Below, one piece after another: positions 10,742-18,765 of a DNA stretch of 36,332 bases (positions are counted from its first letter, which is position 1; each line of letters begins with the position of its first letter). The notes beneath the pieces were generated by a model. The model had not been told where the DNA came from. It saw nothing but the letters and a program-made list of their open reading frames with translations, and searched no databases. The stretch lies in assembly GCA_002169105.1 (NCBI GenBank), contig NHJX01000014.1, positions 11,437 to 47,768 of the forward strand. Reading direction: 5' to 3'. This stretch comes from Gammaproteobacteria bacterium TMED226. Its GTDB lineage: Bacteria; Pseudomonadota; Gammaproteobacteria; Magnimaribacterales; D2472. The translations under genes were made by a program, and so were the position numbers.

Positions 10742-13147
10742 CTATATAACAAAATTAATAAGCTTATCTTTTACATGAATTGTTTTTTTTATTTCTGAAG
10801 AATTTATATAATTTTTAACATTATCAACTTCTAATGCAATTTTCTCTATTTGTTTCTGATCAATGCCTTTATTTGTATTCATTTTTCCTCTGACTTTCCC
10901 ATTAACCTGGATAATTAATTCGAATTCTTCAACTTCTAGAAGACTCTCATTAAATTTTGGCCAAGATGTCTCAATATTAGACTTTTCTCCATAGAAGTTT
11001 TTCCATAAGTATTCACATATGTGAGGTGCAATTGGCGATAGCATTTGTAATATGAATAATATTGCTTCATCAAGACAATACTTTTGGGAGTCTGAAGACT
11101 CATTGCTTTTATAATTTTCAGGTATAGAATTCAGCAATTCCATTATCGCAGCAATGGCAGTATTGAAAGCAAACCTCACTTCATAATCATTTTCTACTTT
11201 TTTTAAAGTTGCATGAGATTTCCTTCTTAATGCTAGCTCATCTTTAGAAAAAACAAACTCGTCATCGAGATGGTTATATTTTCTTCCATCAACTAGGTGC
11301 CATATTTTTTTTAAAAACCTTGAGGCGCCCTCGACAGATGATTCACTCCATTCAAGACTTTGTTCCGGCGGAGAAGTAAACATCATATAAAGTCTTACTG
11401 TATCTGCGCCATATTTCTCAATGTAAGATTGAGGGTCAACTGTATTGCCTTTAGATTTAGACATCTTTGCCCCATCTTTCAAGACCATACCTTGAGTTAA
11501 TAATCTTTTGAATGGTTCATCTCCCTCTACTAAGCCAATATCTCTTAGAGCTTTATGAAAAAACCTTGAATAAAGAAGATGTAAGATAGCGTGCTCAATT
11601 CCACCTATGTAAAGATCAACTGGAAGCCAATATCTAGTATTCTCATCAAATATTTCTTTATTATTATCTGCAGATGTAAATCTTGCATAATACCAAGATG
11701 AATCCATAAAAGTGTCAAAGGTGTCACTCTCTCTTTTCAGGCTATCAGAAATAGTCATAAAATCTTTGTTTTGACTCAATGGTATAGGTGGAGAATCTTT
11801 TTCTAACTTTGGAAGTTTGACTGGCATATCATTTTTATCTATTACATTGGGTTCTCCATTCTCATATATCACTGGAATTGGACAGCCCCAATATCTTTGC
11901 CTGCTAACACCCCAGTCTCTTAGTCTAAATTGAACTAACTCTTCACCCGCCTCTAATTCTATGAGCTTATTTATTATTTTCTTTGACGCCTCGTTAGATG
12001 ACATTCCATCAAAGCCTTCAGAGTTTATGAGCTTGCCTTTATCTATGATTGGTAATTTATTATTTTCTGTTTCAATTACTTGTTTAATATTGAGATTATA
12101 TTTTGTAGCAAATTCATAATCTCTTGTATCATGACCAGGAACTCCCATAACCACTCCAGTTCCATAATCTAGCAAAACAAAATTCCCAATCCATACTGGT
12201 AATTTTTTACCTGATAGAGGGTGAATGACTTCTAAGTTAGTGTCTATACCTAGTTTTTCTGCTTTAGCAATATCAGCTTCTGCGGCCTTAATCTCCATAC
12301 ATTTTTCTATGAACTCTGCAATATCTTTATTTTTATTAGACAGCTCAATAGAAATAGGATGGTTTGGAGATATAGCTAAAAAAGAAACCCCAAAAATAGT
12401 ATCAGGCCTAGTTGAAAAAGTTATAAGGGATTTATCAGAGCCGTGAATATTATATTTAATTTCTGCCCCATAAGACTTACCGATCCAATTTTTTTGCATT
12501 GTCTTAACATTTTCAGGCCAGTCAAGTTTATCTAAAGAATCAAGGAGCTCTTCTGCATAATTAGTTATTCTAATAAACCATTGATCAATTTCTTTGGTTT
12601 CAATTTGTGCTCCTGATCTCCATCCCTTGCCATCAATAACTTGTTCATTAGCTAAAACAGTTTCATCAACTGGATCCCAGTTAACTAAAGATTTTTTTCG
12701 ATATACTAGGCCAGCATCATAGAGTTTTTTAAATATTAACTGCTCCCATTTATAATAATCTGGCTCACATGTTCTTAACTCTTTTGACCAATCATAGCTA
12801 AGCCCTAAAGATTTAAGTTGTCCTTTCATATGTTTTATATTTTGATCTGTCCATTCCATTGGACTAACATCATTTGCAATTGCTGCATTTTCAGCTGGTA
12901 GACCAAAAGCATCCCAACCCATTGGTTGGAATACATTAAAATTCTGCATTCTTTTGAATCTAGAAATTACATCACCAATGGTATAGTTTCTTACATGTCC
13001 CATATGAAGTTTTCCAGAAGGGTACGGAAACATCGACAAGCAGTAATATTTTTCTCTATCATCAATTTTTGAGACATACCTTTCTTCTTTATCCCATTTT
13101 TTTTGAATGGATTTTTCAATAGACTTTGGATTGTACTTAGAGCTCAT
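10742..13147 (-). CDS. leuS: Leucyl-tRNA synthetase
   Basis: A class I aminoacyl-tRNA synthetase that charges tRNA-Leu and edits mischarged species. 801 residues, somewhat shorter than E. coli LeuS (860). The HIGH-type motif is HMGH at 48-51 in [16 protein letters not shown], and the KMSKS motif is at residues 561-565. The CP1 editing domain is present, with [14 protein letters not shown] and the later [13 protein letters not shown]. The tRNA-binding anticodon domain and the C-terminal VNGKVRGK segment are intact. Its start lies inside the last 11 bases of accC. Confidence 0.97.
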
Positions 13148-14489
13148 TGTTTTTAAAAAAATCTCTTTCGAGATATTTAATAGTGTGTTTATTATTTACA
13201 AAAATTTCATTTTTTAAAATTTTTTGATGTAGAGATTGATTTGTTTTAATCCCTTCAACGAAAAACTCATCCAAAGCAGATAGCATTCTTTTAATTGCTG
13301 AACTTCTTGAATTTGCCTGAGTAATTATCTTAGCAAGCAATGAATCATAATATGGAGATACGTTATATCCACTGTATATATGAGAATCATACCTTATGCC
13401 AAATCCGCCAGCAGTATGCATTTTTGTTATCTCGCCTGGGCATGGTTGAAATGTTTCAGGATCTTCTGCATTTATTCTACATTCAAGAGCATGGCCTTTA
13501 AAATTTACTTTGCTTTGATCTAGATCATAGTTAATACCCAAAGCAATTTTAATTTGAGCCTTTACAATATCGAACCCAGTTATCATTTCAGTGACAGGAT
13601 GCTCGACTTGAATTCTAGTATTCATTTCAATGAAATAGAATCCAGCATCTTCATAAAGGAACTCTAAGGTACCGGCACCTTCATATTTGATTTCTTTGCA
13701 CAAATTAACACATGCCTGAAGCGTCTTATCAAGATTATTTTTATCAAGATTTAGTGCAGGAGCTTCTTCAATTATTTTTTGATGTCTTCTTTGCACACTA
13801 CAATCCCTTGTGCCTAAATGAATGGCATCTCCCTTACCATCACCAATAATTTGTATTTCAATATGCCTAGGATTCTCAATATATTTTTCTATATAAATCT
13901 TTTCGTTTCCAAAAGCATTTAAAGCTTCTTGTTTAGTAATTTCAATTAGATTTATTAGATTTTCTTCTTTGTCAACAACCCTCATTCCTCTTCCACCACC
14001 ACCAGCAGTTGCTTTTAAGATAACTGGATAGCCTATATTTTTAACAATATGTTTTATCTTAGCTTCATCATTGGGAAGATCTTTAGAGTAGCCTGGGACA
14101 GTCGGTATATTATATTTCTCTACAAATTTTTTTGCTGTGATTTTATCCCCCATCTTTTTTATTGTTTCAGCATCGGGCCCTATAAATTTATAACCACTTT
14201 TATTGCATTGACCTGCAAATTCATGATTTTCTGCAAGGAACCCATATCCAGGATAGATGGCATCTACTTCTGTAAGTTCTGCTGCAGATAAAATAGAGGG
14301 GATATTTAAATAACTTTCAGCTGGTGAAGCGGGCCCAATACATACAGTTTCATCAGCAAACTTTAGATGTTTTAAATCCCTATCTACATCGGAATACACA
14401 CCCACTGTTTTCATGCCTAATTCTCTACATGCGCGGAGTGCTCTAAGCGCAATTTCTCCCCTATTTGCGATTAATACTTTATAAGTCAT
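13137..14489 (-). CDS. accC: Acetyl-CoA carboxylase, biotin carboxylase subunit
   Basis: The ATP-dependent enzyme that carboxylates the biotin on AccB, the first step of fatty acid synthesis. 450 residues, the standard length. Domains in order are the N-terminal biotin carboxylase fold ([20 protein letters not shown]), the ATP-grasp fold with glycine loop GGGGRGMR at 163-170, and the C-terminal domain. The catalytic region [14 protein letters not shown] is intact. It follows accB with no spacer and overlaps leuS by 11 bases. Confidence 0.97.
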
Positions 14490-14933
14490 TTATTGAATTA
14501 CTATAATGGTTTGACCAAATTCTACTGGTTGCTCATCATTAATTTCTATAGATATTATTTTTCCATCATAATCTGATTTAATTTCGTTCATCATTTTCAT
14601 TGCTTCAATAATGCACAGAACATCACCTTTTTTTACTAAATCACCAACATTAATGAATGGTTCGCTTTCAGGGTTAGGTTTTCTATAAAAAGTTCCTACG
14701 ATAGGTGACTTAACCTCGTTACCCTTATGGATAATATCTTTATTTTGGTTTAGCTCATGAATAGCATTGCCAGTGTCAATCTGATTAATGGTTGCCTGAT
14801 CATTTTCAACAATATTAGTATTTTTACTTTGTTTTGAGATTCTTACAGATTCATCTCCTTGACTCACCTCTATCTCTTTTAAATTTGATTCTTCTAACAT
14901 CTCAATCAATGTTTTAATTTTTCTTATATCCAT
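14490..14933 (-). CDS. accB: Biotin carboxyl carrier protein of acetyl-CoA carboxylase
   Basis: It carries the carboxylated biotin from AccC to the carboxyltransferase. 147 residues: an N-terminal helix (MDIRKIKTLIEMLEESN), a polar linker rich in Asn and Gln at about 35-72, and the C-terminal biotinyl domain. The biotinylated lysine is K113 in EAMKMMNEI. The protruding-thumb segment of BCCP is seen in SPIVGTFYRKPNPESEPFINVGD. It sits 3 bases after aroQ and directly before accC. Confidence 0.96.
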   Translation of the reverse strand: MDIRKIKTLIEMLEESNLKEIEVSQGDESVRISKQSKNTNIVENDQATINQIDTGNAIHELNQNKDIIHKGNEVKSPIVGTFYRKPNPESEPFINVGDLVKKGDVLCIIEAMKMMNEIKSDYDGKIISIEINDEQPVEFGQTIIVIQ

Positions 14934-14936
14934 TTT

Positions 14937-15371
14937 TTACCTATTAGTATTTATTACCTCATTCAAAGCAAGTTCATATCCTTTAGTTCCTCTACCACTA
15001 TAAACTTTTTCTTCAATATCGCTAAAATATGATTTTTTTCTAAACTCTTCTCTAGATTTAATATCAGAAATATGAACTTCATAAAATGGAATTTTTACAG
15101 CTAGTAAGGCATCTCTTAAAGCAACGCTAGTGTGTGTGTAGCCTGCAGGATTAAAAATTATCACATCAGTATGATGATTTAAAGCATTATGAATTGCCTC
15201 AATTAATTCATGCTCAGCATTGCTTTGATAAAAATTAATTTCACAATTAGAATTATCTGCAATATCCTGGAGTTTAATTTCTATGTCCTTAAGAGATTCG
15301 CTTCCATATACATCCTCCTCTCTAAGGCCAAGCAAATTAAGATTAGGACCATTTAAAACTAATATTTTCAT
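14937..15371 (-). CDS. aroQ: 3-dehydroquinate dehydratase, type II
   Basis: It catalyses the third step of the shikimate pathway, 3-dehydroquinate to 3-dehydroshikimate. 144 residues, typical for the dodecameric type II enzyme. The start reads MKILVLNGPNLNLLGLREED. The flexible active-site lid carries R17 and Y22, FNPAGYTHTSVALRDAL is the core, and H100 in EVHISDI is the catalytic histidine. Gene order dsbD-aroQ-accB-accC is common in gammaproteobacteria, and here a shortened dsbD precedes it. A tandem 10-base repeat lies directly before its ATG. Confidence 0.96.
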   Translation of the reverse strand: MKILVLNGPNLNLLGLREEDVYGSESLKDIEIKLQDIADNSNCEINFYQSNAEHELIEAIHNALNHHTDVIIFNPAGYTHTSVALRDALLAVKIPFYEVHISDIKSREEFRKKSYFSDIEEKVYSGRGTKGYELALNEVINTNR

Positions 15372-15411: not shown

Positions 15412-15828
15412 TTATTTAATATCTATAGATTGAACTGGATAGCAAAATCCTTTATCTGAACAGCCCTGATAAAATATTTGAGTTTCGCTGTTATTAGGAA
15501 TATTTTTGAAAGAAATTCTAAATAAATTTTTAATTATCACCGTATTCCCAAAAAACTCATCCTCATGATCAAAAGGATTACCATCAAGCATCGTATATCC
15601 AATTTCGCTTTCTTTATTTTTAATCTTTATAGATCTTAGGTATAAATAATAACTTTCTTTAATGCTCCAAGTAGCAACTATATCATCATCATCTTTAATG
15701 AATTTAAAACCAAAAGCTTTATCTGCTGGAAGAATTTTATTATTTTCTTGCGGGAACATAAAACTACCTTGAGCTAGTAAATTAAAACTAGTAGCAAATA
15801 TAATAATTATAAATAATGTCTTTTTCAT
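15412..15828 (-). CDS. Stand-alone N-terminal (alpha) domain of DsbD
   Basis: A secreted 138-residue protein with a signal peptide at about 1-19. The body follows the periplasmic N-terminal domain of DsbD: ILPADKAFGFKF, VATWSIKESYYLYLRSIKI, HEDEFFGN and FYQGCSDKGFCYP. The redox cysteines are C123 and C129, with the spacing of the C103/C109 pair of E. coli nDsbD. In full DsbD this domain receives electrons from the membrane domain and passes them to DsbC or CcmG. Here the eight-helix membrane domain and the C-terminal thioredoxin domain are absent: a clean TAA follows and aroQ begins 40 bases later. It heads the aroQ-accBC-leuS-lptE-holA run, the normal place for dsbD. A separate CcdA- or ScsB-like partner could exist elsewhere. 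Confidence 0.82.
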   Translation of the reverse strand: MKKTLFIIIIFATSFNLLAQGSFMFPQENNKILPADKAFGFKFIKDDDDIVATWSIKESYYLYLRSIKIKNKESEIGYTMLDGNPFDHEDEFFGNTVIIKNLFRISFKNIPNNSETQIFYQGCSDKGFCYPVQSIDIK

Positions 15829-16905: not shown

Positions 16906-18765
16906 ATGGCGTATAAAAAAATAAATTTAAGGAATCCAGACACTGGAATTATTAAAGAAGTTCCAGTTGGTTTTTCTTGGACTGTCCTAATTTTTGGATT
17001 TTTTACTCCTTTGCTTAGAAGGGATGCTAAATGGACAATGATTATATTCATATGCTCTGTATTTACTCTTGGACTTTCTAGCATTGTTATTGCTTTTATA
17101 TATAACAAGATTCATTTAGAGAGTTTGCTGGAGGATGGGTATGTAGAAAATAAAGAAAGAGAGATATCAGATACCGCTATTAAAAATATAGTTGAAGTAA
17201 AGAATTTAAGCATTGATTTCAAAGTTAGGGATGGACTTTTTAAAGCAGTAGATGACATAAGTTTTAATATTGAAACAAACAAAACCTTGGCTCTTGTAGG
17301 AGAATCAGGATCAGGTAAATCAGTTACAGCAATGTCAATCATGCAACTATTACCAGTACCTCAGGCAACTTATGGAACAGAGTCTTCTATTAAATTTAAC
17401 CATAGAGAAATTATTAATGCATCTAAAAATGATCTTCTGTCTATAAGAGGAAATATTATCTCAATGGTTTTTCAAGAGCCAATGACTTCGCTAAATCCAT
17501 ACCATAAAGTTGGAGATCAAATAACAGAATCAGTGCTTTTACACACAAATGCCTCAAAAAAAGAAGCTAAAGATGAGGCAATAGAATTAATGGAATTAGT
17601 TGAAATAGATGAAGTCCAAAGAAGATTTAATTCTTACCCTCACGAGCTATCTGGAGGCCAAAGGCAGAGAATCATGATAGCAATGGCTTTAGTAAATAAA
17701 CCAAAACTTCTGATTGCCGATGAACCAACAACAGCATTAGATGTAACTATTCAAGCTCAAATCTTAGATCTGATGTCAAAGTTAAAGACAGATCTTGGAA
17801 TGTCTATCCTATTCATAACACATGACCTGGGGTTAGTTAAGGAGTTTTCAGATCAAGTTTGTGTAATGCAAAATGGAAAGATAGTTGAAAGTGGCGATAC
17901 AAATAATGTTTTTGAAAATCCACAACACAACTATACAAAAAAATTACTCAGTGCAGAACCTCAACCCAAGCCAGAAATTAATAGCAACGAAGAACCTCTC
18001 ATAGAGATAAAAAACTTAGATGTTTACTATGATATTCCGAGTATAAGTTTTTTAAAAAAAGACAGATTTCATGCTGTAAAAGATACTTCATTAAATATTT
18101 ATAAAAATACAACTATAGGTTTGGTTGGTGAGTCAGGTTCTGGAAAATCTACACTAGGCAAAGCGATAGCAAATTTAACAAGCTTTGAAGGAAAAATTAG
18201 TTTTAATGGAAAAGAAATTAAAGATTCTCCAAAGGATATTAAAAAACATATTCAAATAGTATTTCAAGATCCATACGGTTCTTTATCGCCTCGAATGACA
18301 ATTGGTGAGATTGTTGGTGAGGGGTTAGGGGTTCACTTCAGATTAACCAAAGATGAAACACAAAAAAGAATTGATAAAGTTCTTAATGACGTTGGAATCG
18401 AGTTGAATGCAAAAAATAAATATCCACATGAGTTTTCTGGTGGCCAGCGACAAAGAATAGCAATTGCAAGGTCGCTAATCATGAATCCAGCTTTCATGAT
18501 ACTAGATGAACCAACTTCAGCACTTGATAGGTCTATACAGATTCAAGTAATCAACTTATTAAAAGATATACAAGATGAATACAAATTAACCTATCTTTTT
18601 ATAAGCCATGATTTAAAAGTTATTAGATCAATGTCAGACTATATCTTTGTGATGAAAGATGGAAAAATAGTAGAATCAGGCCTTTCAAATCAGGTTTTTG
18701 ACTATCCAAAAGAAAAATATACTAAAAAATTACTCTCAGCTGCGTTAAGATACGCATCCGATTGA
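16906..18765 (+). CDS. Fusion: two-helix membrane domain + YejF-like double ABC ATPase
   Basis: 619 residues. Residues 1-80 form a small membrane domain: VGFSWTVLIFGFFTPLLRRDAKW, a second hydrophobic helix at about 43-67, then NKIHLESLLEDGY. It resembles small stand-alone proteins of Proteobacteria and phages (sometimes annotated HrgC), whose function I do not know. From about 95 there are two full ABC ATPase domains of the oligopeptide class. Walker A sites are at 132-139 and 408-415, signature motifs at 248-252 (LSGGQ) and 510-514 (FSGGQ), with Walker B LLIADEP at 268-274. The ATPase part closely follows E. coli YejF (peptide/microcin C importer). No permease or binding-protein gene is nearby. 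No stop or convincing internal start separates the parts. Confidence 0.85.
   Translation: MAYKKINLRNPDTGIIKEVPVGFSWTVLIFGFFTPLLRRDAKWTMIIFICSVFTLGLSSIVIAFIYNKIHLESLLEDGYVENKEREISDTAIKNIVEVKNLSIDFKVRDGLFKAVDDISFNIETNKTLALVGESGSGKSVTAMSIMQLLPVPQATYGTESSIKFNHREIINASKNDLLSIRGNIISMVFQEPMTSLNPYHKVGDQITESVLLHTNASKKEAKDEAIELMELVEIDEVQRRFNSYPHELSGGQRQRIMIAMALVNKPKLLIADEPTTALDVTIQAQILDLMSKLKTDLGMSILFITHDLGLVKEFSDQVCVMQNGKIVESGDTNNVFENPQHNYTKKLLSAEPQPKPEINSNEEPLIEIKNLDVYYDIPSISFLKKDRFHAVKDTSLNIYKNTTIGLVGESGSGKSTLGKAIANLTSFEGKISFNGKEIKDSPKDIKKHIQIVFQDPYGSLSPRMTIGEIVGEGLGVHFRLTKDETQKRIDKVLNDVGIELNAKNKYPHEFSGGQRQRIAIARSLIMNPAFMILDEPTSALDRSIQIQVINLLKDIQDEYKLTYLFISHDLKVIRSMSDYIFVMKDGKIVESGLSNQVFDYPKEKYTKKLLSAALRYASD

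Follow-up and report, generated by a model that had tools for sequence, protein, structure and literature searches.

What supplies electrons to a DsbD head that has lost the rest of DsbD? This question arises from the window, the whole stretch of 36,332 nucleotides of Gammaproteobacteria bacterium TMED226 that we analysed. At the normal dsbD position it carries a gene that encodes the periplasmic N-terminal domain (nDsbD) and stops there. A preliminary description had reported this gene, with both redox cysteines, in the order dsbD remnant, aroQ, accB and accC. The coordinates agree with that order and with the reported spacing to aroQ (Table 1). The membrane and thioredoxin domains are indeed gone: neither was found at the locus.

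Table 1. Features of the lone nDsbD locus and of a split carrier elsewhere (window coordinates unless a locus is named)
Feature	Position	Strand	Basis or remark
Stand-alone nDsbD gene, 138 aa, ATG start	15412-15828	(-)	Pfam DsbD_N, PDB match, AlphaFold model
Putative Sec signal peptide, ~residues 1-21, without lipobox	15766-15828	(-)	Translation inspected by eye
Cap loop D90-E91-F92-F93-G94 (E. coli 68-72)	15547-15561	(-)	Alignment to 1jpe HEDEFYG
Redox pair C123-x5-C129 (E. coli C103/C109)	15442-15462	(-)	Alignment
aroQ, same strand, 40 bases 3' of the lone nDsbD stop	14937-15371	(-)	
accB	14490-14933	(-)	Order common to full-length dsbD loci of other orders
accC	13137-14489	(-)	Order common to full-length dsbD loci of other orders
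f77 split ScsB-like carrier and small head	L259 335-916, 934-2136; L258 347-928, 934-2136	(-)	

Judged by its sequence, the product is an intact nDsbD domain in which the cap loop and both cysteines are preserved. Pfam DsbD_N (PF11412) matches residues 30-134 with 61.6 bits (cut-off 25). A phmmer search of the PDB returned nine sequences at E ≤1, DsbD throughout, with E. coli nDsbD (1jpe) as the best match (E 5.2e-20). In this alignment C123 and C129 match the cysteines of E. coli YQGCADAGFCYP, HEDEFFG stands opposite E. coli HEDEFYG, and the cap loop keeps its aromatic cover. The E. coli numbering of the redox pair (C103/C109) and of the cap loop (68-72) follows the accessible portion of PMC7347389. 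The NCBIfam model for DsbD gives 94.1 bits, under its cut-off of 330. The Pfam scan found no DsbD_TM match in the 138-aa frame and no thioredoxin match in its translation, and no membrane or thioredoxin domain follows the gene at the window locus. By eye the N-terminus resembles a signal peptide (residues 1-3 and 11-28 have a pLDDT below 50). We read the gene as encoding a soluble, redox-active head that is probably exported.

The predicted structure points the same way. An AlphaFold2 model built from 44 sequences has a mean pLDDT of 83.8. Residues 1-30 score low, and from residue 31 onwards 10 of 11 blocks average at least 93 (block 111-120 averages 84). Foldseek returned 18 matches at E ≤0.001, every one a DsbD N-terminal domain entry (1l6p: E 3.7e-11). 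VIA aligns the model with nine nDsbD entries at Z 14.1-15.5 (NMR model 11.1), led by 6dps with an rmsd of 2.1 over 107 residues. The structural comparison with nDsbD that the preliminary description proposed therefore yields the same fold, with Z up to 15.5. The ScsB N-domain 6c29 reaches Z 8.3, the same level as unrelated immunoglobulin folds. The modelled product has the nDsbD immunoglobulin-like fold.

How widespread is the lone head? The named loci closest to the window belong to SAR86 cluster genomes, including SAR86A and SAR86B (among 80 of 184 relatives). The window's own assembly (776 kb, 23 contigs) is 63% complete, so absences in it alone mean little. Within the genus, DsbD_N matches in 34 of 34 genomes, and 28 of these have a lone copy (open frame below 200 aa), including all six genomes with a completeness of 90% or more. 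The six genomes without a lone copy are 66-86% complete. Our sample of the order comprised 56 genomes (at least 88% complete, plus the window's own at 63%). Here, 46 of 56 genomes carry lone nDsbD, in open frames of 136-208 aa. By family, these are 25/25 genomes in f1, 16/18 in f2, 5/7 in f3 and 0/6 in f4. Comparing the locus across relatives, as had been suggested, thus shows that the split is fixed.

Across 27 aligned lone copies, Y63, D90, G94, G122, C123, C129, Y130 and P131 are invariant and F93 is kept in at least 90%. Nearly all invariant columns lie around the cysteine pair and the cap loop. Identity to the window copy falls as low as 20% among these 27, and the copies of f2 and f3 are divergent.

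The head needs a reductant, and the likely source of electrons is encoded on another contig of the same genome. There we found a 676-aa DsbD-family protein (G000:C22:10950-12980) with the Pfam domains DsbD_N, DsbD_TM and Thioredoxin_7. Its DsbD_TM score is 65.7 bits, compared with 320-350 for four canonical DsbD scores; the order's carriers range from 48 to 94 bits. Its best solved relative is the Proteus mirabilis ScsB N-domain 6c29 (E 2.1e-8, residues 24-112). The preliminary description had considered an unlinked membrane partner, and such a partner is indeed the likely electron source. It had also named a full-length dsbD elsewhere as fatal to its account. A DsbD-family gene does exist, but the DsbD_TM score and 6c29 as best relative place it in the ScsB class and rule out a full-length backup DsbD.

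This pattern extends over the order. One DsbD_TM gene above the cut-off occurs in 54 of 56 genomes and none in G087 and G114. The carrier gene is in two pieces in G093 and is seen only as a partial frame in G126. G096 and G097 each show an additional DsbD_TM match below the cut-off, which might be another carrier. Canonical DsbD was not found among the 56 genomes, nor DsbD_2 in any of 15 genomes searched. The scsB gene is unlinked to the lone nDsbD gene. Its neighbours in the window's own genome resemble, by eye, Hsp20 and an integral membrane protein. A redoxin-like gene lies 3' of scsB in the four loci read for this (L093, L094, L097, L106; one Pfam-scanned).

ScsB also has a head of its own, which is not close to lone nDsbD in sequence (Cx3C versus Cx5C). 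All 39 ScsB proteins read have the head motif CxxxC-x-P (rows picked by their WCITC motif), and 38 of 39 have WCITC in the gamma domain (rows picked by length), with the one exception truncated where its contig ends. Families that carry the lone head do not differ plainly in this gamma motif from families that lack it. In G000, G007 and G097 a profile of lone copies (E 1e-4) matched the lone copy only and missed the ScsB head. A second profile, A3 (25 lone copies and 19 full-length DsbD heads), matched 0 of 38 ScsB proteins at E 0.01 versus 45 of 45 full-length DsbDs, some of which are A3 members. With one ScsB carrier, a distant attached head and a lone nDsbD, most genomes pair one engine with two different heads.

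We propose that lone nDsbD is a free second head that would be reduced in trans by the gamma domain of ScsB and would feed clients of the DsbC/CcmG type. From the sequences at hand we give this reading a probability of roughly 0.55. The locus would have lost the beta and gamma domains from which nDsbD formerly received electrons, with the unlinked ScsB replacing them in trans. Electrons would pass from cytoplasmic thioredoxin to the ScsB beta domain and on to the gamma domain (WCITC). From there they could go either to the attached alpha head (Cx3C) or to free nDsbD (Cx5C). Free nDsbD would then hand them to thioredoxin-fold proteins like those that nDsbD classically serves; CcmG and DsbC are the most likely ones. 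The sequences show the domain, active site, place and conservation of the gene, one membrane carrier above the cut-off and the presence of clients; export and every one of these transfers are inferred.

The domains of E. coli DsbD expressed apart were reportedly functional in trans (Katzen and Beckwith, in 2000). According to the accessible text of PMC7347389, canonical nDsbD receives electrons from the gamma domain and hands them to DsbC, CcmG and DsbG. The same text states that the cap loop shields reduced nDsbD, so a free head could survive in the oxidising periplasm. ScsB keeps ScsC reduced (PMC8900818, in part), and in Caulobacter electrons run from ScsB to TlpA to PprX (PMC5403849, in part). 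A part of ScsB in CcmG reduction had not been analysed by 2015, as far as the available section of a review from that year tells (PMC4460558). Within the open-licence literature we found no description of a stand-alone nDsbD, nor of SAR86 with DsbD.

The candidate clients are present. Across the order, 53 of 56 genomes encode DsbC (not found in the window's own genome, G100 and G126), and 49 of 56 encode a CcmG above the cut-off. This answers the search for both targets proposed at the outset. The 12 DsbC and 7 CcmG loci that we read all preserve CxxC, and the CcmG gene of the window's own genome lies 3' of an ORF that resembles ccmF by eye.

Several observations count against the proposed path. 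ScsB already has a head, the lone gene lies away from scsB, and DsbC was not detected in the window's own, 63% complete genome. The excerpted PMC7347389 also calls cDsbD the sole legitimate reductant of nDsbD, which counts against ScsB gamma as donor. The strongest point against a strict need for the lone head is f4. None of its six genomes has the lone head, yet all six have a DsbD_TM gene (one a partial frame), five have DsbC and four have CcmG above the cut-off. With carrier and clients present and no lone head, ScsB alone can apparently suffice. Across the order, too, we found no link between the lone head and the presence of DsbC or CcmG.

Could a protein other than ScsB reduce the lone head? 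Another periplasmic thioredoxin-fold protein, for example a TlpA-like one, would then be the donor on a side branch. The window's own genome encodes a candidate, a 150-aa TlpA-like protein with WCAPC and a weak match to the CcmG model (G000:C22, L280 809-1261), ~12 kb from scsB. In a further family, f77, a thioredoxin-like gene lies directly 3' of lone nDsbD. However, a TlpA-like donor would itself depend on a membrane carrier, and the available part of PMC7347389 has canonical nDsbD donating electrons to CcmG-like proteins, not the reverse. We consider such a donor unlikely.

Equally unlikely, in our view, is a new job for lone nDsbD as an oxidant, a holdase or a helper of copper proteins, for which the membrane carrier would not be needed. 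The neighbourhood in f3 speaks for it: in 5 of 5 loci the gene divergent from lone nDsbD encodes a copper chaperone of the PCuAC type (L073-L077; one called by Pfam, the others by tblastn with that sequence at E 3.6e-9 or better). The same query had no tblastn match in 35 loci of f1 and f2, and the cysteine pair and cap-loop positions are conserved in lone nDsbDs. The idea of an oxidant or chaperone, which the preliminary description had raised, found no support, as the reductive active-site cysteines and the cap-loop positions are kept.

A free head might also serve clients other than DsbC and CcmG, for instance methionine sulfoxide reductases or peroxiredoxins at a distance from the inner membrane. 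By diffusion it could get to clients that lie beyond the range of an anchored DsbD. Neisseria PilB illustrates the problem: it is reported to be bound to the outer membrane and hard for anchored DsbD to reach (PMC6210582, in part), a limit from which a diffusing head would be free. We rate this possibility slightly below the previous two.

Finally, the gene might be dead. Lone nDsbD has dN/dS values of 0.19-0.45 in 10 of 11 pairs, the remaining pair being without synonymous change. For aroQ the values are 0.04-0.24, below those of lone nDsbD in all nine pairs computable for both. Lone nDsbD is under purifying selection, with a weaker constraint than aroQ. A functionless, decaying dsbD relic or an assembly error, to which the absence from f4 and the divergent copies of f2 and f3 would be congenial, is extremely improbable against these dN/dS values and a frame and catalytic residues intact across many separately assembled genomes. 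The recent decay and the sequencing error that had been considered at first are both rejected, given that three families (f1-f3) carry the lone copy and that it is under purifying selection.

Where does the lone gene come from? Most simply, it is the remnant of a full-length dsbD retained at its original place. We picked 40 SAR86 loci of f1-f3 because they had a lone copy; in all 40, aroQ lies directly 3' of it on the same strand, at a gap of 3-89 bases. The lone gene is also ahead of aroQ in 30 of 30 SAR86-like loci of a named-genome collection, many genomes of which overlap the other set. In that collection, Pseudoalteromonas has a full-length dsbD directly ahead of aroQ-accB-accC in 13 of 13 loci. 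Xenorhabdus, Marinobacter, Vibrio and enterobacterial loci have a full-length dsbD without adjoining aroQ. Since Pseudoalteromonas and others are full-length here, it is most likely SAR86 that lost the membrane and thioredoxin domains and retained the head. In f4, aroQ occurs in five of six genomes with hemB next on the other side, 155-260 bases off, and no ORF of at least 60 aa is listed in the gap between them.

A search of the whole class (276 genomes) with a profile of 27 lone copies agrees with this origin. The profile matches 248 genomes. Among the matches listed from outside the order, the 22 best fall within open frames of 527-790 aa; next, in 23rd place, comes a lone copy (G173). In 15 full-length dsbD loci from this search, aroQ adjoins in seven, lies beyond one thioredoxin-like gene in three and farther on in one; none was seen in four, including the best match, G247. 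Five records of a phage collection also match. Two are annotated, both as DsbD in Salmonella-named records, and three are unannotated; we take all of them as host DNA.

A tree of the heads places the 40 lone copies of f1 and f2 in one set (95/94). The five f3 copies cluster together (89/94), at a weak fork that puts them on the side of the full-length proteins, and all 45 SAR86 lone copies are united in only 3% of 200 bootstrap trees. The tree has few columns and long branches, and its starred branches are compatible with one origin.

Three side observations concern these loci. Of 20 loci read in the genus, 11 (L036-L044, L046, L048) lack accB-accC between aroQ and leuS, and the window genome retains both. 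The window also encodes an OppDF-like double ABC ATPase (16906-18765, plus strand) with ~92 extra N-terminal residues that contain membrane-like stretches. The relatives inspected begin at the ATPase itself (528 aa), and tblastn (E 1e-3) did not find the extension in 40 related SAR86 loci. An aphid endosymbiont of the genus Arsenophonus (L229) has frames of 173 and 277 aa at the place of the 586-aa dsbD of related strains, probably through decay.

Separate heads are not confined to SAR86. In both genomes of f77 a lone nDsbD gene (217 and 224 aa) precedes a thioredoxin-like gene, after which come aroQ-accB-accC. Elsewhere they encode a 400-aa beta-gamma carrier beside a separate 193-aa head (the pair of G199 was Pfam-scanned), and G199 has a further, 245-aa DsbD_TM frame. 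The tree places the f77 pair (100/98) outside the f1/f2 set. This position and the split carrier suggest that heads on separate polypeptides probably arose more than once. G173 combines a full-length DsbD with a lone head of 156 aa that has, by eye, a lipobox.

The proposed path can be taken further, more tentatively. SAR86 may run a hybrid two-headed hub, in which one ScsB engine would serve its own anchored head and, in trans, a diffusing DsbD head that takes reducing power from the inner membrane out to clients beyond the anchored reach. The split, having probably arisen more than once (SAR86, f77), would reverse the fusion proposed for the origin of DsbD. That DsbD originated by domain fusion is said to have been proposed by Katzen et al. 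in 2002, to go by their title. We regard this extended version as possible but doubtful.

If the proposed path is true, members of the DsbD superfamily can naturally swap delivery heads and membrane engines. The SAR86 pair would then be a test case for ScsB feeding CcmG and DsbC, and SAR86 a natural test of mixing and matching modular electron carriers. As a marine group that is abundant and mostly uncultured, SAR86 makes the redox wiring of its envelope a matter that concerns a large population.

How does the arrangement compare with known systems? With the nDsbD of DsbD (E. coli 1L6P, N. meningitidis 6DNV) the SAR86 head has in common the predicted fold, the C-x5-C pair and the cap loop, and the classical clients are encoded in most genomes. 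In contrast, the SAR86 head is the whole protein, without beta and gamma domains. ScsB (P. mirabilis 6c29, Caulobacter ScsB) is of the same class as the only above-cut-off carrier of SAR86, but its own head is Cx3C whereas the lone SAR86 head is Cx5C. CcdA and the split DsbD constructs likewise have carrier parts on separate polypeptides; the SAR86 split, however, is natural, and its engine and head are of different classes. DsbDs with tandem heads also combine one engine with more than one head, although there both heads are attached. Two tandem nDsbD heads occur in 4 of 45 full-length proteins (L154-L157, gammaproteobacterial, 748-788 aa), and paired places in the class search suggest more. 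The SAR86 split is thus a variant on known modular arrangements of the DsbD family.
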